Source of the DNA: an uncultured Clostridia bacterium
GTDB lineage: Bacteria; Bacillota; Clostridia; Oscillospirales; Ruminococcaceae
Direction of reading: 5' to 3'
Assembly (NCBI GenBank): GCA_944382845.1
Contig: CALWNN010000038.1
Location: 1 to 64,000, forward strand
DNA length: 64,000 bases
The notes beneath the pieces were generated by a model. It was not told where the DNA came from, searched no databases, and saw only the letters and a list, made by a program, of their open reading frames with translations. This document shows, piece after piece, positions 305-63,687 of the stretch (the stretch's first letter is position 1; each line of letters begins with the position of its first letter). Made by a program: the position numbers and the translations under genes.

Positions 305-607
305 TCAATCTTTCATTGTGAATAGCAGACCAACAAGTTCCTTTTTCCATGGGATAAATATTTCCTCATCAATCATTGAGAAAATCATTTCTTTTGAAGC
401 CCATTTTACATCCTTTACTTTCTCATACTGCAATGTCAGTTCGCTAAGCTCAACATCTTTTGTAACAACATAAATATCATCAAAACCAGCATCAAAGTTC
501 ACAGTAATAACCGGTCTTGAGTTCTCAATATCAAGGTCAAGTCCAAGTTCTTCACTCACCTCGCGCTTTGCGGCAATGCTGCTTTTCGTCGCAACGTGAT
601 TAAGCAC
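305..607 (-). pseudogene. 5'-truncated Nudix hydrolase remnant
   Basis: The 100-residue frame (GTG at 607) contains the second half of a Nudix box, AAKREVSEELGLD, which holds the REXXEE metal-binding residues, followed by a typical Nudix beta-strand region. The upstream half of the domain, including the first strands and the initial glycine and glutamate of the box, is missing. The apparent start lies in sequence (about 582-607) that matches a dispersed repeat copy at 39749-39774 over some 26 bases, so the gene seems to have lost its 5' end at a repeat junction. The remaining frame is open to its stop, so the loss may be recent. Nucleotide-diphosphate hydrolysis is the family activity, but this fragment is unlikely to fold as a full enzyme. 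Confidence 0.7.
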
Positions 608-672
608 AGCTCAGAAAGAGATGTTCAGCTCTGAAAGAGATGTAATTATCAATGCTTTGCTACGATTTAAAA
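578..672 (+). repeat. Dispersed repeat copy R1 (partial, right-hand part)
   Basis: The plus strand carries TGCTTTTCGTCGCAACGTGA, shared with the minus strand at 39749-39774, then a near-perfect 19-base tandem duplication (CAGCTCAGAAAGAGATGT then CAGCTCTGAAAGAGATGT), and ends in CTACGATTTAAAA, the same right end as copies R4 and R5. The right end touches the TGA stop of the FAD gene at 674; the left part is replaced by Nudix coding sequence. Confidence 0.6.
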
Positions 673-2263: not shown

Positions 2264-2293
2264 AAGCTTACTCCATTAAGAAACCGTTCCACT

Positions 2294-2445
2294 GCATAAC
2301 AATGTCGCAAATATGCCCTGCCGAATAAGTGGCAGATTCCATTCACAATTTCAGCGTTGAATTAACCTACACTGAAATTCTGAAGAGCAACGCTCTAAAC
2401 AAAGTCTTGTCATTATCAGTGACGAATTGCAATCGTCTAAGCTGA
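2294..2445 (+). repeat. Dispersed repeat copy R2 (diverged)
   Basis: Lies in the 251-base gap between cdaR and the FAD gene. In plus orientation it runs from CATAACAATGTCGCAAAT (left end), through ACTGAAATTCTGAAGAGCAA, CTCTAAACAAAG and CTTGTCATT, to GACGAATTGCAATCGTC. These blocks align in order with the minus strand of copy R6 (62694-62864). The rest of the gap (2446-2514) holds a small stem TAATCGG/CCGATTA but nothing else recognisable. Confidence 0.65.
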
Positions 2446-2514
2446 TTTTAAGCAAGCTTAATAATCGGCTTTTCTCCGATTAAAAATTCAGGAGCGGTTG
2501 ATTTTATTATTTTA

Positions 2515-15240: not shown

Positions 15241-15576
15241 CCTCCTTATAAAATTCAATAAAAAAAGCCCATTGTCAACATTGCATTAACGCAATGGGAC
15301 AATAGACTATTGTGGTGCCACCCAATTTTACATCTGTATTACTACAGCTGCCTCAGCAAGATACGCAAGCACAAGCTTTTAATATCTCTGTCCACTAACG
15401 CAGGATACTCGTTCAGTAATACTCAGTTATTATTAACCTTTCCGCTGACTCCTCACAAATCCATTCACTTATCTCGCCTGTATCTGCTTCACACCACCAC
15501 AGACTCTCTGAAACCCCGATTGATAAGCTACTTACTTTTGCTCAAAGGATTTAAACAATATTTAATTACTGTTTTT
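15241..15576 (-). promoter_or_regulatory. T-box leader of the trp operon (specifier TGG)
   Basis: The leader has T-box elements in order on the minus strand. Stem I contains AGAGAGTCTGTGGTGG and a specifier segment GTGAATGGATT, with TGG (Trp) at 15461-15463. The antiterminator T-box TGGGTGGCACCAC is at 15312-15324, and the terminator pairs CCCATTG with CAATGGG followed by seven T (about 15254-15300). Uncharged tRNA-Trp would bind the specifier and T-box and let transcription enter trpE. The T-box sequence has GGCACCAC where the usual form is GGNACCGC. This fills the gap between trpE and the divergent udp promoter. Confidence 0.93.
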
Positions 15577-39724: not shown

Positions 39725-39829
39725 TTTTAAATTAGTGAAAAGCTCGCTTAATCACGTTGCGACGAAAAGCAACTCGTCCTAAACAATGACAAGTCATTGT
39801 TTAGAGGAACATCGGCGACTTGGTTATAT
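39725..39829 (-). repeat. Dispersed repeat copy R3
   Basis: Minus orientation. It starts with TATAACCAAGTCGCCGATGT at the addA stop codon, passes through a 12-base inverted repeat CTAAACAATGAC/GTCATTGTTTAG (39780-39805), then GTTGC/GCAAC around TTTTCGTC, and GTGATTAAGC, shared with R1. The right end, in AT-rich DNA before the infC promoter, is not sharply defined. Confidence 0.7.
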
Positions 39830-42800
39830 TTCAACCTTTATCGGAATCATAAGTTTAAAAGAGTAAATATAGCACTCCTTGACTTTTTTCCCGAATATCA
39901 GTTCAAAAGCAGACTTATACAAAACAAGCTGTACCCGATGACGATCAATAAGCTCCTGTGGCTGTTTAACGTTATCTGTTTTATAGTCAACGATAACAAA
40001 TCCGTCATCTTCTTCAATAATCAGGTCGGCTATTCCCTGAACCATAACATCCTTATTATTATACTCTTTAAAAAGCGGATCGTCAATAGTCATATCAGAT
40101 AGTCTTACCATAAATTTCTGTTCTCTCATTACTCTGACAGCATTTTTGCAGCGTTTATACAGATCGCTTTCAAAGAACTTTTCAACAGTATTTATATTTA
40201 CGTTTTCGGCCTGAAATTCTGTCATTTTATTAAGACTTACGAGTCTGTCTATTTCATCAGCCGGATCATTTTCAGCCTTTTCAAAATCCGCAAGTTCCAT
40301 AAACAAGTGGGTATATGTTCCCTTGTCAGCGGCGGAAACGCTTTTCGTTTCTTTTGAAAAATCCGGAACAGGCGGAAAATAGGTTATTTCCTTTTCAGTT
40401 TCCCCCTCTGAGAGTTCCCTTACAAACTCGGTTACAGAAAGTTTTGATACCGTATCCGTATCTTCGCTGCTTTCTTTTAATGTCAGATTATCAACTATTC
40501 TCCCAAAAAGTGCGATTTCCACAGGCGCTTTAGGAAGTGAAATATCGATGTTTTCGATGTTATCCTCAGGTTTGCACAGCTCATATTCTATAACCGCTTC
40601 TGTGCTGAGATTCGGGAGACCGTTTGCCTCAATATCAAGAAAATCACAAAGCTCATTTCTGTTATGGCAGCAAAGAAGAGCATATGTCAATATTTCCGAA
40701 TAGCTTCGCATTGTTTCGATATCGATATATGAAGGCTTTCCCTGACCGGATAAATTCTCAGCAGCCTTTTTTATACGGTTTAAAGACCTGGATTTAAAAT
40801 ACAGAGGGATAATCAGTTTTTCTTTTGCTCTTGTAAGCGCAACATAAAGAATACGGAGTTCCTCGCTTAGCTGTTCGGTGATCCGTGCATTATTTATATA
40901 ATTGTAGAACACTGTCCTTCTGTTATATTTAGGCGATCTGTCCCTAATAGTAACGGCAGCGCCTATCCTCTCGTTGCAAATGATCTTTTCGGGGGAATTT
41001 GATATATTATATTCTTTTGCTATATCGCCGAGGACGACAATCGGATATTCAAGTCCTTTTGATTTATGGATAGTTTTAATAATTACTGTTTTATCCGAAG
41101 CTGAAACAGTAAGGGCCTCTTCAAAATCTTTTCCCGACTGAGAAACACTGTCAAGATATCTTATAAAATCGCTCAGACCTCCTCCTGTGGAGTTTTCATA
41201 ATCCGAGGCAAGCTTTATAAGAAGTCTCAGATTTGCTCTCTTTTGTTGGCTGTCCTCAAATGCGGCGGCCACGGACATAAAGTCGGTTGTATCATAAATT
41301 TTTCTTACGAGTTTTTCAAGAGGCATACCCGAAGCGAAAAATCTGAGTTTTGATATAATATTAACAGTGTCCCTGCATTTTTTTTGAAGCTTTTTATTAT
41401 TGATCTCAACTGCTTCGTAGCCGTATTCCCTTGCAGAATCGTCACGGGAAACCGCAAGGAAAAGCTGAAACAGTTTTTTCTGCTTGTCAACAAGCCGTAT
41501 CTCTGAGAGTTCATCGGCAGTAAATCCAAACACCTGAGAAAGGCACACTGCCGCAAATGGAATATCCTGCATCGGATTGTCGATAATTTTAAGCATACTT
41601 ACAGCCAGACTTACTTCTCTTGCGCCAAGGTACCCACTTACGGAGTCGGTAACTGCACTTAATCCCACAGCTTCCATCGCTTTTATGTACTGCTGTATCT
41701 TTTTTGAAGTTCTTAAAAGTATGCAGAAATCTCCTCCTCGACAGTTTCTGAGCACTCCATTATCGGAAACCTGAAATCTGCCGTCTATCATGCTTCTGAT
41801 TTTCCTGGCAACTGCCGCACTCTCAGGATCCGGTTTATCGGTATCCTCCTCGTTTTCGTCAGTCACTTCCGTATCTATAAGAAGGATATCGGTTTCGGGG
41901 TCATTTCCCGGATACACAGCGCCGCATACAAGAGCTTCGTCCTCATTATACACAACATCTCCGATCTGATCAGACATTACATTTTCAAATATAAAGTTTG
42001 TAAAGTCGATTATATTTTTTCTGCTCCTATAATTTTTCTTAAGAAGCACCGCTCTGAGCTTATCCTCATATCCGTGAGTTACCGCAAGCTTTCTTACTCT
42101 GTCAAAAATCATAGGATTTGACTGTCTGAAGCCATAAATAGACTGTTTGATATCTCCGACAATAAAAACGTTTTTCCCCATTATATTCACATCATCAGTA
42201 TCGGATATACATCTGAAAATTATGTCCTGAAGGTCGTTTACGTCCTGATATTCGTCAATAAGGATTATCTTATAACGTTTTTCATCAACAATCTTCTGTG
42301 AAAGTTCCGTTCTTTCAAAGCCGTTTTCCGTAGGACGGGACAAAAGTCTTATCACCATGTCTGTAACGTCTGAAAAGTAAACCTTGTTTTTTTCGGTTTT
42401 ATATCCCCAGAGTATTTCCTCAGCTTTTAAAACAAACTCCCACAACACATCAAAAACCTTTACTGTTTCTTTTTTGTCATGTTCAATTTCATCATCAGAG
42501 AGGATTACTGCATTGTCGATGGATTTAATGAAGTCTGATATTCCTTTTTTTATTTCTGCAATCTTATCATACATGATATTAATTTCAGGAGGAGTCTTTG
42601 ATTTATTGGGCCTTCTCGGGAATTTAATATCGGAAAACGACTGTCTTGCATTAATGACGCTTTCATCGCACTTATTTCCCTTTACGTTTAAAATCCGGCT
42701 TACATATTCATTACAGCATGAAACATAGCTTTCATAGCCGGAGTTTCCGATCTCATCAGCTATTTTTTTAAGTCTTTCGGCAGCTCTTTTCAACGCTTTT

Positions 42801-43453
42801 GCCTTTACAACTATTTTACTCATGACATCTGAGTTTTGCGCTTCTCCGATTTTTTCATAAACGTCAAAGCAATTCTTTCTCCACTGTTCCGGAAAAGGAA
42901 GCGAGCCTTTGAATTTATGTAGTTCCATACCAGCTCTGATGACTTCGCTATCATTTTCTTCCGCAAAGTTATCCATAAGTATCTTCATATTTTCCGGGCG
43001 GTTTATAAAATACCATTCCGAGGCCTCGTTAAAAGCTTTTTCGGTAAGTATCTGATTTTCCACTCCGTCTATAATGGAAAAGTCTGCGGAAAGTTCAAAC
43101 TCATTGATATTATTTTTAACAAGCTCCATGCAAAACGAATCTATAGTACATATGGAAGCAAGCGGGAGAAGCTCCTGCTGTTTTGCAATCCATTCGTTAG
43201 ACGGGTCTTGTTCAAGTTTTTCCTTCATGGCTTTTGAAAGCTTTTCCTTCATCTGGTTTGCGGCATCGTTTGTAAAGGTAACTGCAAGTATGGAATCAGC
43301 TTCTATTCCAAGTATAGGATCAAGCAGCATTCTTATTGTTCTCTCAATAAGAACGGCGGTTTTTCCGCTTCCTGCCGCAGCCGCAACAACAGTTCCCCTG
43401 TCTATGGAATTGATAGCTTGCTGCTGACCCTCGTTCCATTTGACTTCACCCAT
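39824..43453 (-). CDS. addA: AddA subunit of the helicase-nuclease AddAB
   Basis: AddAB processes double-strand breaks for RecA. The 1209-residue protein is a UvrD-type helicase with Walker A VVAAAAGSGKTAVLIERT near residue 30, AVTFTNDAANQMKEKL, the Walker B ILIDEYQDVNDLQ, VGDIKQSIYGFRQSNP, IIKTIHKSKGLEYPIV and LRILYVALTRAKEKL. The C-terminal RecB-type nuclease has DGFVIVDYKTDNV and QLVLYKSAFE. Start ATG overlaps the addB stop by one base. The stop codon TAA lies within the left end of repeat copy R3, so the last residues border the repeat. Confidence 0.96.
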   Translation of the reverse strand: MGEVKWNEGQQQAINSIDRGTVVAAAAGSGKTAVLIERTIRMLLDPILGIEADSILAVTFTNDAANQMKEKLSKAMKEKLEQDPSNEWIAKQQELLPLASICTIDSFCMELVKNNINEFELSADFSIIDGVENQILTEKAFNEASEWYFINRPENMKILMDNFAEENDSEVIRAGMELHKFKGSLPFPEQWRKNCFDVYEKIGEAQNSDVMSKIVVKAKALKRAAERLKKIADEIGNSGYESYVSCCNEYVSRILNVKGNKCDESVINARQSFSDIKFPRRPNKSKTPPEINIMYDKIAEIKKGISDFIKSIDNAVILSDDEIEHDKKETVKVFDVLWEFVLKAEEILWGYKTEKNKVYFSDVTDMVIRLLSRPTENGFERTELSQKIVDEKRYKIILIDEYQDVNDLQDIIFRCISDTDDVNIMGKNVFIVGDIKQSIYGFRQSNPMIFDRVRKLAVTHGYEDKLRAVLLKKNYRSRKNIIDFTNFIFENVMSDQIGDVVYNEDEALVCGAVYPGNDPETDILLIDTEVTDENEEDTDKPDPESAAVARKIRSMIDGRFQVSDNGVLRNCRGGDFCILLRTSKKIQQYIKAMEAVGLSAVTDSVSGYLGAREVSLAVSMLKIIDNPMQDIPFAAVCLSQVFGFTADELSEIRLVDKQKKLFQLFLAVSRDDSAREYGYEAVEINNKKLQKKCRDTVNIISKLRFFASGMPLEKLVRKIYDTTDFMSVAAAFEDSQQKRANLRLLIKLASDYENSTGGGLSDFIRYLDSVSQSGKDFEEALTVSASDKTVIIKTIHKSKGLEYPIVVLGDIAKEYNISNSPEKIICNERIGAAVTIRDRSPKYNRRTVFYNYINNARITEQLSEELRILYVALTRAKEKLIIPLYFKSRSLNRIKKAAENLSGQGKPSYIDIETMRSYSEILTYALLCCHNRNELCDFLDIEANGLPNLSTEAVIEYELCKPEDNIENIDISLPKAPVEIALFGRIVDNLTLKESSEDTDTVSKLSVTEFVRELSEGETEKEITYFPPVPDFSKETKSVSAADKGTYTHLFMELADFEKAENDPADEIDRLVSLNKMTEFQAENVNINTVEKFFESDLYKRCKNAVRVMREQKFMVRLSDMTIDDPLFKEYNNKDVMVQGIADLIIEEDDGFVIVDYKTDNVKQPQELIDRHRVQLVLYKSAFELIFGKKVKECYIYSFKLMIPIKVEI

Positions 43454-50419: not shown

Positions 50420-50615
50420 CACAATTTTAAATCGTTGCAGATTTCTCTTCAGAGAGCAATAGTCGTTTTTATCAAAGAAAAAACAACTTGGGATTTCTAC
50501 CTGCCTACCCTCCAACGAAAGACTGTATGAACCTGCCTCCTATAAAAGACAGTCCCGACCACAGAGGCAGTCCTTGCCGAATATTCTGCAAGGGAACATC
50601 TGCTACTTGGTTATA
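50420..50615 (-). repeat. Dispersed repeat copy R4 (long form)
   Basis: Minus orientation, about 195 bases, filling most of the 301-base gap after the LysR gene. Left end TATAACCAAGTAGCAGATGT at the LysR stop; a middle module with TATAGGAGGCAGGTTCATAC, TCGTTGGAGGGTAGG and GTAGAAATCCCA, shared with R6; right end CAACGATTTAAAATTGTG, shared with R1 and R5. It lacks the CAATGAC palindrome of R3 and R6. Confidence 0.65.
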
Positions 50616-51549
50616 TAGACATCTCAACCTTTAATTCTTCAATTTGTTCTCTGAGTTTTTTTATAAACAGATTCTCATGCGAGTGAAAAGTTTTTCCATG
50701 CTTATATACAACAACGTCCTTAGTGATTTCATTTGCAATCGAACAAGGTCTCACAACCAGTCCATGACGCTGTAAAAATTCCCCCGGCACGGGAGATACC
50801 CACATATATGAGTTTTCAACGTTCTGCAAAATATCAAGCTGGCTTCCTCTGTCGTAGATATAAATTGTTTTAGCAGGAGGATCTATTTCTGTATCACGCC
50901 TTATATTTGAAACAGTCACGCCGTGCATATTGTAATCGCCGTGAATAATTTCAATATGATCTCTTAAAAACGGATAAGGAACATCTTCATACCGAGCAAG
51001 AGGATTTTTCTCTGACATCATTATCAGCATTTTAAATTCAAAAATAGTGTCGTAGTCAAGCTCCTTATCATTCATAAGAGATCTGAAATAATCTTCATAC
51101 ATCGCCTGGTATCTTATGACCGAAAAATCAGAGTCCCCCGAAGCTGTATCCGCAATAGCGGAATGAGCGTCAGCTTCACGGAAATATACCTTTATCCTTT
51201 CGCTTTCGGAAAGCTCGTTCATGTACTCTGTAAATGCAACTGAACAATATGTTGCCCGTGGAATTGTGACTTTAAACTGAATATGCTTATTGTCCGTAGC
51301 TTTGAATATAGTTTCAAACTCATCCATCTGTGAAAGCAGCTTCCTTGCATAAGTAATAAATTCCATGCCAATCCTTGTTGCTTTAACTCCCTTTGCTGTT
51401 CGGTTGAAAATAGTTATTCCCATTTCATTTTCTATTTCTTTTATCGCCTTACTTAAGTTAGGCTGACCCATAAAGAGATTTTGTGCGGCTTTTGTTATTG
51501 AGCCGGTATTATCTACCTCAACAATATACTTCAGATGTTGAAAATTCAT
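50611..51549 (-). CDS. LysR family transcriptional regulator
   Basis: A 312-residue regulator with the LysR winged helix at the N-terminus (MNFQHLKYIVEVDNTGSITKAAQNLFMGQPNLSKA in order; the helix-turn-helix is at about 17-38) and the EIENEMGITIFNRTAKG wing. The rest is an effector-binding domain of the periplasmic-binding type. It is transcribed away from the iron alcohol dehydrogenase gene, and LysR proteins often control their divergent neighbour, so that gene is the likely target. The TAA stop lies inside the left end of repeat copy R4. The effector is unknown. Confidence 0.92.
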   Translation of the reverse strand: MNFQHLKYIVEVDNTGSITKAAQNLFMGQPNLSKAIKEIENEMGITIFNRTAKGVKATRIGMEFITYARKLLSQMDEFETIFKATDNKHIQFKVTIPRATYCSVAFTEYMNELSESERIKVYFREADAHSAIADTASGDSDFSVIRYQAMYEDYFRSLMNDKELDYDTIFEFKMLIMMSEKNPLARYEDVPYPFLRDHIEIIHGDYNMHGVTVSNIRRDTEIDPPAKTIYIYDRGSQLDILQNVENSYMWVSPVPGEFLQRHGLVVRPCSIANEITKDVVVYKHGKTFHSHENLFIKKLREQIEELKVEMSI

Positions 51550-53105: not shown

Positions 53106-53195
53106 CATAATTTAAATCGTCATTAACAATGACAAGCATTGTTCAGCGTCTGCTCCCCATGGGTTTCAGAGGGAACATCGGCGACTTGGTATTAT
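53106..53195 (-). repeat. Dispersed repeat copy R5 (short form)
   Basis: Minus orientation. Left end TAATACCAAGTCGCCGATGT covers the GH5 stop codon; then a CCCATGGGG stem, GAACAATGCTTGTCATTGTT, and right end GACGATTTAAATTATG that abuts the terminator. Confidence 0.7.
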
Positions 53196-54430
53196 TCGTC
53201 CAATACGCTCATCATTTCGTCTATAAGCTCTCTGTCTATAAACTCACAGTTTGTACGATCGTAAAAAGCGCCGGTAACGTCCCAAAGAACAGGACACATA
53301 TCCCTTTCATAAACCTCTCTGCATACAGTTGAGATAAAAAGCCGAACCATTTCAGGAGTTTTGTTTTTCTGCTCAACCCCATATTCACCGATAATTACAG
53401 GAATACCGTTATCAACAAACTTTTCCTTCATCATATCCATATTCTTGTCAAGCTCAGCAAGATCCTGTTCGTCACCCCATTCGGTCTTTGCCTTGCCCCA
53501 TTCGGCGTCCTCTGAAAGAATACAGAATGTCGCAGGAGTATAGTAGTGTACCGAAACTGCACATCTGTTTTCCGAGTCATTTGGCATTTTAAAGGCATCA
53601 TCGCAGGTAAGCTCAATATCAGTGGCATATCCTGCAATAAGAAGGTGACGCTTTGCATTGTTTCCTCCCGAATTTCTTACCGTATCAACAAATGTCTGAT
53701 TTATCTCATTAAGGAGTCCGAAAGCGGCTTGCTTATCGCCGGCATTTGGGTTGTACCTGTTCCATAAAGATTCCCAGTTTCCCTCTTCATTAAGAGATTC
53801 AAACATGAGGTAATCATTATAATCCTTGAAATTCTCGCATATTTGTTCCCATATGCGAATGTACTTTTTCATGCAGTTTTCCTTGTCTGTAGGGAAATTT
53901 GTCCACCAGCCGCCGTCCCAATGAATATTGACAATTGCGTACATTCCGTTGTCAATAGTCCAGTCAACTATCTGAGTGACCCTTTCCATATAGCTCGAAT
54001 CAATGGTATAATTATTTTCCACATCCATTAGATTTGACCACGCAACAGGTATTCTGAGAACTCCGAAGCCTTCATCGGCATAGCCTTTGATGATATCCTC
54101 TGTAATTTCAGGGCTTCCCCAAGCAGTTTCATAATCTGCAGCAGTTATACCGTTTATCCAGTCGCCACAAGACTCCATTGTATTTCCAAGGTTTATGCCA
54201 ATGCCCATATCGTCAACAAGTTCCATTGTTGTTATGTCACGCATACCGGGATACTTATCTTCTCCGTTATCCTTGCCCTCGTTGCTTTTTTCTGTAGAAA
54301 TATCAGAAGGCGAATTTACAGAGGAGGATTTATCATTGGAAGAATTTTTTTGATTCTTGTCGGCGCAACCTGCTGCTATTGAAAGAGTCATAACAAAGCA
54401 AACAACAGTGCAAAATAATTTTTTCAGCAT
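53192..54430 (-). CDS. GH5 family glycoside hydrolase, lipoprotein
   Basis: This 412-residue enzyme probably cleaves a beta-glucan or related polysaccharide at the cell surface. A signal peptide ends in the lipobox SIAAGC with Cys22 as the lipidated residue, followed by a Ser/Asn/Lys-rich linker to about residue 60. The GH5 barrel shows GIGINLGNTMES, VLRIPVAW, VNIHWDGGWW, the acid/base Glu215 in SLNEEG, VHYYTP, and the nucleophile Glu349 in IIGEYG. No dockerin or carbohydrate-binding module is visible. It is last in the GH51-DUF6171-GH43-GH5 operon, and its TAA stop is inside repeat copy R5. Confidence 0.92.
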   Translation of the reverse strand: MLKKLFCTVVCFVMTLSIAAGCADKNQKNSSNDKSSSVNSPSDISTEKSNEGKDNGEDKYPGMRDITTMELVDDMGIGINLGNTMESCGDWINGITAADYETAWGSPEITEDIIKGYADEGFGVLRIPVAWSNLMDVENNYTIDSSYMERVTQIVDWTIDNGMYAIVNIHWDGGWWTNFPTDKENCMKKYIRIWEQICENFKDYNDYLMFESLNEEGNWESLWNRYNPNAGDKQAAFGLLNEINQTFVDTVRNSGGNNAKRHLLIAGYATDIELTCDDAFKMPNDSENRCAVSVHYYTPATFCILSEDAEWGKAKTEWGDEQDLAELDKNMDMMKEKFVDNGIPVIIGEYGVEQKNKTPEMVRLFISTVCREVYERDMCPVLWDVTGAFYDRTNCEFIDRELIDEMMSVLDE

Positions 54431-62530: not shown

Positions 62531-62693
62531 TTTTAAAACTCCTTTTTATTTTTTTCGGGTTTGCTTTATTATTATTGCTTCGAGTTTCATTTTTTATTAG
62601 AGGAAATTCCTTGTTTTGCGTCAAAAAATTTCTTTTGAAATTTCAAAAAACAATTTCCGAAAAATAATCGAAGTTTATTTAAATCAGAACAAA

Positions 62694-62864
62694 GCTAAGA
62701 CCATTGCAACTCGTCATTAACAATGACAAGTCATTGTTTAGAGTTTGCTTCTCAGGATTTCAGTATGGGATTCTCATCTAACCTACCACCGATAGATTGC
62801 ATAGACCTTGCCTATAGAAGCATATCTGCCTGAATGGTGGGTGACATTGGCGACTTGGTTATAA
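62694..62864 (-). repeat. Dispersed repeat copy R6 (long form)
   Basis: Minus orientation, in the 281-base gap before the spore gene and reaching into the nitrilase gene. Left end ATAACCAAGTCGCCAATGTC; a middle with CTATAGGCAAGGTC, CTATCGGTGGTAGG and GAGAATCCCATACTG, shared with R4 and R2; TCTAAACAATGACTTGTCAT; and right GACGAGTTGCAATGGTCTTA. The remaining 62531-62690 is AT-rich upstream DNA of the spore gene with nothing else visible. Confidence 0.72.
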
Positions 62865-63687
62865 GTTCACCATACTTTTCAGGGTGACGACAGACATTTC
62901 CCATAACTTCATTTTGACGATATTCACGAAGAAGATCCAAATCAAGGCTTACAATATAGATACCTTCTTCTTCAGGCGCTTCAAATATACACATATCTCT
63001 CGAACCCGGTTCATCACTAAGCCATGCAACGCCGTCAAACACGGTAGAGTGACCGTTACAGTCGGGATGACCTTTGGGATAGTTGCATGTGGCTATCGCA
63101 AGCATATTTTCATAAGCACGTGTACGCAGTGTACTCAGCCTGTTTATTTCCATAGGACAAGCATTTGGAGCAAGTATCAGTTCTGCTCCCTTACACATTA
63201 ATATCCTTGCACTTTCAGGGAACTCTCTGTCAAAGCAAATCATACATCCGACAGTGACTGTTCCTTTATCGGTTTCAAGTACTGTTGTATAAAATTCATC
63301 TCCGGGAGAGAGCATTTTTTCAGCGTCAAAATCGCATATATGGACTTTTGAGTAATGAATCGCCTCATTACCGTTTTTATCAAAAACAACTATCGAATTC
63401 AACGGCTTTGGATAATGCTTTTCTAGAAAAGTTATGCCGATAGCCATTTTAAGTTTTTTTGCAAGGTCTTTAAATGCTGTCACAAAACGGTTTGTAAGAC
63501 TCAGAGCCAGACTTTCTAAAAGTTCTGTATTCTGAGGGATATTATAACCGTTGCTCCACATTTCCGGAAACAGGGCGATATCCGCTCCCATTTCCTTAGC
63601 TTTTTTACAAGCATTGATTCCTTTTTCAAGCTGCTTGTTCCTGTCATTTTCTCCATAAAGCTGAAGCAAAGCGATTTTAAGTTTCAT
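62812..63687 (-). CDS. Carbon-nitrogen hydrolase (nitrilase family)
   Basis: A 291-residue amidase/nitrilase-superfamily enzyme with the Glu-Lys-Cys triad: Glu in ALFPEMWSNGY (near 42), Lys in HYSKVHICDFD (near 114) and Cys in VGCMICFDREFPESAR (near 150). The last 16 residues, ITKSPMSPTIQADMLL, are encoded by repeat copy R6, so the natural C-terminus has been replaced or extended by the insertion. AAAGGAGAG lies about ten bases before ATG. The substrate, an amide or carbamoyl compound, is not predictable. An aldo/keto reductase lies upstream on the same strand. Confidence 0.88.
   Translation of the reverse strand: MKLKIALLQLYGENDRNKQLEKGINACKKAKEMGADIALFPEMWSNGYNIPQNTELLESLALSLTNRFVTAFKDLAKKLKMAIGITFLEKHYPKPLNSIVVFDKNGNEAIHYSKVHICDFDAEKMLSPGDEFYTTVLETDKGTVTVGCMICFDREFPESARILMCKGAELILAPNACPMEINRLSTLRTRAYENMLAIATCNYPKGHPDCNGHSTVFDGVAWLSDEPGSRDMCIFEAPEEEGIYIVSLDLDLLREYRQNEVMGNVCRHPEKYGELITKSPMSPTIQADMLL

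Follow-up and report, generated by a model that had tools for sequence, protein, structure and literature searches.

A dispersed family of short, folded and almost certainly mobile repeats bordered by TATAA in Ruminococcaceae genomes

In the window, that is, the whole 64,000-nucleotide stretch of DNA analysed here, copies of a short repeat lie at six places, among them the stop codons of a UvrD-helicase/PD-(D/E)XK gene, a LysR-type gene and a GH5 cellulase-type gene. The first-pass annotation had described these as a modular, dispersed family. Indeed, when 50 copies from the genome were compared with the window by BLAST, exactly these six sites were returned, and chance is excluded, since the left-end 19-mer (up to three mismatches) matches the window 4 times versus 0.02 expected. 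All six sites kept their places, but BLAST redrew their ends, the right end of R2 moving about 40 bases outward:

R1, 565..671, plus strand: truncated on the left, retaining just the right end and the inner modules; 19 BLAST hits (best E 3e-28)
R1 right end ACGATTTAAA, starting at 662, plus strand
R2, 2286..2485 (approximate), plus strand: old, decayed, full copy (19 BLAST hits, best E 2e-12)
R2 ends, plus strand: left ATAACAATGTCGC (decayed), right GATTAAAA
R3, 39726..39828, minus strand: copy with the exact left end AACCAAGTCGCCGATGTTC
R3 inner domain, minus strand: CTAAACAATGAC/GTCATTGTTTAG palindrome in its place
R3 left border TATAA, 39824..39828, minus strand: the TAA at 39824-39826 serves as stop of gene 39824-43453
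Gene 39824-43453: UvrD-helicase/PD-(D/E)XK, its stop supplied within the R3 border
R3 inner module TGCTTTTCGTCGCAACGTGATTAAGC, 39746..39771, minus strand: 33 exact copies genome-wide
R3 right border CTAATTTAAA, 39726..39735, minus strand
R4, 50426..50615, minus strand: long, diverged copy; its border TAA is the stop of the LysR-type gene 50611-51549
R5, 53111..53193, minus strand: short copy located where the GH5 cellulase-type gene 53192-54430 stops
R5 border, minus strand: AATAATACC where TATAACC is expected
R6, 62678..62863, minus strand: decayed, full-length copy, entered for about 50 bases by the CN_hydrolase ORF 62812-63687

The shared left end first proposed holds for R3 to R6 (up to three mismatches), but R1 has none and that of R2 is decayed. 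Similarly, the proposed right end ACGATTTAAA is exact in R1, R4 and R5 only, with CTAATTTAAA in R3 and CTGATTTAAA in R6, and the CAATGAC/GTCATTG palindrome, at first taken for a constant part, is an optional module. No long open reading frame lies inside the copies (the list used has a minimum of 120 aa), in keeping with their description as non-coding, but the gene next to R6 runs into it.

The expected genome-wide abundance was borne out. The host (G000; 2.14 Mb, 93 contigs) has 136 left ends at up to three mismatches, 66 on one strand and 70 on the other, versus 0 for the reversed control, and the inner 26-mer occurs 48 times within three mismatches, 33 of them exact. Ten host contigs (C2, C26, C36, C48, C50, C63, C72, C74, C80 and C84) have an exact inner 26-mer no more than about 130 bases from their start, so the repeat family seems to fragment the draft assembly. 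The copies fetched for comparison were the best-matching ones, a non-random sample.

Among other genomes the spread is patchy. An exact 21-base scan of genome contigs, from which records very close to the host were possibly left out, returned 27 stretches, all of them in two further assemblies, CAMMVF (G299, an uncultured Clostridia bacterium) and CALXIQ (uncultured Ruminococcus sp.), where the left-end pattern occurs 96 and 6 times, respectively, with controls at 0. Absence from orthologous sites in relatives had been put forward as a sign of mobility. Bar one weak match, the left-end pattern is missing from the congeners altogether, with 0, 1 (two mismatches), 0 and 0 left ends in four host congeners (80, 99, 90 and 81% complete) and none in any of five CAMMVF congeners. 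Across 298 family genomes it matched in 19, of which 17 have a single two-mismatch hit each (control hits occur in 13 genomes); the other two are the host and G166 (6 hits), whose copy positions agree with those of CALXIQ. A search for phage or plasmid carriage gave 0 exact matches in viral contigs and none in plasmids.

When a CALXIQ copy served as query in a more sensitive DNA search, 17 of 397 family genomes, from 9 of 126 genera, proved to hold relatives. This count takes in the host and G166, rests on two scored candidates per genome and includes one or more weak matches that resemble coding DNA, such as L220 of G375. Diverged relatives are present in congener G003 too. Full-length relatives outside the host and G166 are 70-76% identical and share one order of parts: TATAA, the left strand of a closing stem (P1), an ATGTCCCCCGCC..GGCGG hairpin, a CAGT..GGGG..CCCC..ACTG hairpin, a small third hairpin and the partner strand P1'. 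After P1', many have a long hairpin ending near CGATTTAAA, and G364, G398, G361 and G128 have another last hairpin (GGGGC..GCCCC) ahead of TTATTTAAA or TTATTGAAA. L196, L202 and L214 are copies cut down to the outer parts, and the first copy of L025 (~1000-1210) carries six units of the inner palindrome CTGCCG(C)AGTATTCGGC in tandem. This same L025 copy breaks off within the second hairpin, at a TATAA, after GGAGGTATAA. Two host copies, L038 at 1000 and L111 at 2838, have the same inner end point CATTCAGTTTTTTATT and no usual right end; these are possibly a subfamily with another end.

The borders of the family are sharp: TATAA|CCAAG on the left and GATTTAAA on the right. In the two high-copy genomes, the left border reads T in 86%, A in 90-96% and T in 94-97%, followed by AAC (TATAACC), and the right border reads GATT followed by A in 73-89%, A in 95-98% and A in 93-96%; the first of these is lowered by an inner site to which the anchors match as well. 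Beyond both borders the composition is near background with a mild A/T preference, and no position right of GATTTAAA is strongly conserved. From one set of these border statistics, 30 of 137 copies without a recognised right end were dropped. Among the relatives, TATAA stands at the left end in 15 of the 21 rows of the structural alignment described below (A2), and TAA at the same place in 20 of 21. A short fixed target on the left side only is a feature of the palindrome-associated PATEs of Haloquadratum and of IS200/IS605-type transposons. No clear correlation between left and right flanks was seen over 104 copies (best diagonal z 2.8, many tested). The TATAAC was also considered as a promoter and rejected, with a TTGACA-like box (one mismatch, spacer 15-19) in 3 of 105 TAT-ending left flanks, where three control spacings gave 6, 8 and 2.

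That the repeat family as such is mobile is nearly certain, and copies inserted into copies record how insertion proceeds. Three distinct junctions of this kind occur in the host, GATTTAAA|TCAAG, |CCAAG and |CCATG. At L099 and L157, a consensus-like copy stands in front of a decayed older one, so the site before insertion was TATAA|YCAAG; at the third junction, L171, both copies are reduced. Target duplication is absent at all three. A duplication of TA or TAA is rejected by them, since they leave no room for it, and the junction that it would leave, GATTTAA|YCAAG, was found 0 times in a scan of 223 records. A one-base (A) duplication may occur at insertion. A comparison of the cellulase gene for empty sites was of no use owing to paralogues.

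These junctions bear directly on the first alternative, that the repeats are miniature inverted-repeat elements (MITEs) of a DDE transposase, either IS630-like with a TA target or IS5/Harbinger-like with TNA, which would read P1 and P1' as terminal inverted repeats. Short copies do have P1' at the right end and so present an imperfect inverted repeat (AACC..GTCGCC / GGCGAC.GATT), the outline TATAA...TTTAAA formally permits a TA or TAA duplication, and RUP and BOX are reported with inverted repeats and duplications (PMC3049150). However, all three copy-copy junctions have one A too many for such a duplication, the expected junction form is missing from the 223 records, and the right end is variable on its inner side (GGCGAAGATT, GCTCCGATT and GGCGACGATT), leaving about 8 conserved bases. 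We consider a DDE origin unlikely, and prefer to read the repeats as elements that would move as single-stranded DNA with the help of an HUH/Y1-type enzyme.

The folded shape is retained in related bacteria despite sequence change. The left strand of P1 varies by genome (GTCGCCG, AAGTGCA, TCACCG, GCGCC, ACGACTG and GGCAAG), and its partner changes alongside. The native pairings of P1 sum to -168.3 kcal/mol over 14 genomes, whereas 20,000 random pairings have a mean of -87.3 (sd 11.8) and a best of -133.1, so that 0 were as good as the native set (the left strand of L198 entered this test in shortened form). Ranked against the partners of the other genomes, a strand's own partner came first in 13 of 21 rows, and in the remaining 8 it ranked 2, 11, 2, 6, 10, 3, 3 and 5; two rows lose first rank because the P1 strands of the host, G299 and G166 are nearly identical. 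Alignment A2 comprises 21 of the 22 located domains of relatives (L174, with an extra hairpin, was omitted; L192, cut by BLAST, and L196/L222, L202/L221, L204, L209-L211, L214, L216 and L217 are fragments lacking the first domain and stand outside it, as does the coding-like L220). In A2, 82.6% of cells are paired, both sides changed in 25 of 37 pairs, and the covariation score is 0.320 versus 0.148 (sd 0.012) for shuffled and at most 0.141 for slid alignments. The small third hairpin aligns poorly, with 60% paired. A separate RNAalifold run, of which no use is made here, gave a poor consensus (-18). As for single copies, one from CALXIQ folds at -80 kcal/mol, with z -8.1 as RNA and z -7.6 as DNA, and R3, which is without P1', reaches only z -2.7 as DNA. 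Palindromes near the termini are again a PATE feature.

The first-pass annotation had left it to covariation to show whether the hairpins are conserved as RNA. Across genera they are conserved, but within one genome no preference for the RNA strand is clear: in 29 CAMMVF copies, one-sided changes at pairs with a Watson-Crick majority comprise 49 G.U and 40 A.C oppositions. Rfam, applied to the window and 14 loci with hits counted from the gathering score or at E of 0.1 or less, has no match at the copies; away from them, it matches T-box, tRNA, TPP and Gut-1 only. Among these, a T-box leader lies in the window at 15292-15554 on the minus strand (RF00230, 99.6 bits).

Among 74 co-directional genes lying upstream of a copy, 15 (11 of 42 in the host and 4 of 32 in G299) have the border TAA as their stop codon, and every other offset is used at most 3 times. 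This enrichment is a peak in offsets only, not relative to target supply: compared with background TATAA sites, stop-codon insertions are not significantly enriched (p=0.37), both background stop sites in that comparison being R3 and R4 themselves. In the one gene checked, rplA, the stop region reads GGC GTA TAA CC in the host, GGT GTA TAA AC in congener G002 and GTG TAA TT in G001; the host protein is not shortened, and G002 has TATAA natively at the same codon. In G002, the stretch from the rplA stop at ~320 to ~730 of L150 seems to hold a different short repeat, ACGGTT..ACCGACCT..CCTCGC..GTGCTCGGG, twice over with the start of a third; its first copy starts shortly after a TATAA stop codon. 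Between co-directional genes, sense copies outnumber antisense copies 45 to 15 (p=1.3e-4), and with all 15 stop insertions removed from the sense side the ratio is 30 to 15 (p=0.036); because the TATAA target is asymmetric at stop codons, it explains part of this bias. Several relatives' copies lie in sense orientation a short distance upstream of a start codon. One of them, in L210 (G323), by our reading separates a groES-like start codon from a CIRCE-like inverted repeat (TTAGCACTC..GAGTGCTAA).

The second alternative, a structured RNA with a function in mRNA (3' stabiliser, processing site or 5' leader) that was spread by duplication and kept by selection, draws on these same results, namely the covarying pairs over 14 genomes, the 45 to 15 sense bias and the sense copies just before start codons. 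We consider it improbable to a greater degree than the DDE reading: the 49 G.U versus 40 A.C changes in G299 mean that pairing in one RNA strand is not clearly kept, congeners lack copies by pattern, neighbouring genes are unrelated, and the asymmetric target accounts for part of the bias. Passive amplification by hairpin-mediated template switching and homologous recombination, with no dedicated enzyme, would suit the swapped and tandemly repeated inner hairpins (six units in L025) but is very improbable, since sharp borders on both sides and a fixed left pentamer suggest a specific cut.

Our preferred reading, to which we give somewhat less than even confidence, is that the repeats are non-autonomous mobile elements, targeted to TATAA and moved in trans as single-stranded DNA by an HUH/Y1-type enzyme. 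The elements are about 65-295 bp long, and one strand folds into P1 enclosing two or three hairpins; in long copies a second long hairpin comes after the P1 domain, and then the tail GATTTAAA. Excision and insertion would most likely proceed as structured single-stranded DNA, with a transposase of the HUH/Y1 type (IS200/IS605 or RAYT-like) supplied in trans; the element enters directly after TATAA without duplicating it. The enzyme would read P1 and the terminal hairpin, in which case the element of each lineage would co-evolve with the enzyme of that lineage. Where the target is a TATAA stop codon, insertion would re-create the stop, so that such copies could be tolerated, and would give the transcript a strong 3' hairpin. 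The analysis shows the family itself, its copy number and patchy spread, its borders, the lack of target duplication at three junctions and the covarying structure. The single-stranded intermediate, the enzyme class, the co-evolution and the effect on mRNA are what we infer, and the enzyme class has less than an even chance of being right.

The repeats had been described as lacking a transposase. Among Y1 transposases, the only enzyme class sought, 3 matches were found in seven genomes, all draft assemblies, and none is enclosed by family ends; an autonomous Y1 element as the source is rejected on this ground. The host's sole match, close to the end of a contig, is interrupted by two in-frame stops, two matches in G299 are open, and G300 and four congeners have none. 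One of the G299 genes (L118) adjoins a copy but lies outside family ends (about 1.5 kb viewed on each side), and by reading it belongs to an IS605-type gene pair. With the host assembly a draft in 93 contigs, some multicopy genes may have dropped out of it. Inspection of the hairpin surroundings by eye brought up no guide sequence that could pair with TATAA. Two further candidates, integron attC sites and group II introns, were rejected on borders that do not fit.

No family with these ends was found in the literature searched, mostly papers outside subscription, or in Rfam, in agreement with the first-pass annotation. The closest known kind, on our best reading by comparison, is probably the PATEs, palindrome-associated elements related to IS605-type transposons (PMC3119063). 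PATEs share with the repeats described here a small size, the lack of a transposase gene and of target duplication, palindromes close to the termini, a short targeting sequence on the 5' side, a heterogeneous interior and nested insertions (PMC3119063). In contrast, PATE palindromes resemble those of IS605-type transposons, a partner for which no counterpart was found here, and a covarying closing stem over most of the element is undescribed for PATEs in the parts of that source consulted (PMC3119063). IS200/IS605-type transposition and its PATE derivatives are marked by a fixed target, by insertion free of duplication, and by asymmetric ends with hairpins at the termini (PMC3119063, PMC2817692).

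The first-pass annotation had been reminded of BOX, and the likeness stands in habit: two end modules with variable, repeated middle modules, inner hairpins with stable predicted folds, and supplied stop codons (PMC3049150). One pneumococcal genome has 125 BOX elements of 67-637 bp, which supply the stop in 36 of 58 overlapping CDSs with no strong sign of truncation (PMC3049150). Membership, judged by description, does not follow, as BOX is reported to have inverted repeats and target duplications (PMC3049150), whereas the three junctions here lack a duplication. REP/BIME sequences with RAYT share high copy number, mosaics of palindromes and genome-specific sequence, but a REP consists of one short palindrome with a GTAG-type foot, and two REPs flank the associated rayt gene (PMC2817692); no rayt-type gene flanked by repeats in inverted orientation was found here (Y1 family, seven genomes, about 1.5 kb around the matches). 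Correia and RUP MITEs are likewise non-coding, mobile, mostly intergenic and foldable, but they have terminal inverted repeats and target duplication (PMC10969869, PMC3049150).

A bolder proposal, which we hold to be rather doubtful, is that a mobile superfamily defined by shape may exist within one bacterial family, each lineage having its own P1 sequence, held complementary through covariation, and moving its own set of elements with a partner enzyme of an undescribed kind; it would resemble REP/RAYT systems but with whole multi-hairpin elements, for which TATAA stops would be safe havens. The movers of short bacterial repeats are often unknown, and such repeats are often described one genome at a time. 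Here, one architecture recurs in nine genera with different end sequences, so the recognition rule may be read from covariation, and insertion at a fixed target without duplication becomes testable in this family. The repeats would also offer, beside BOX, another case of elements that occupy stop codons without shortening the gene, as seen in one gene here.
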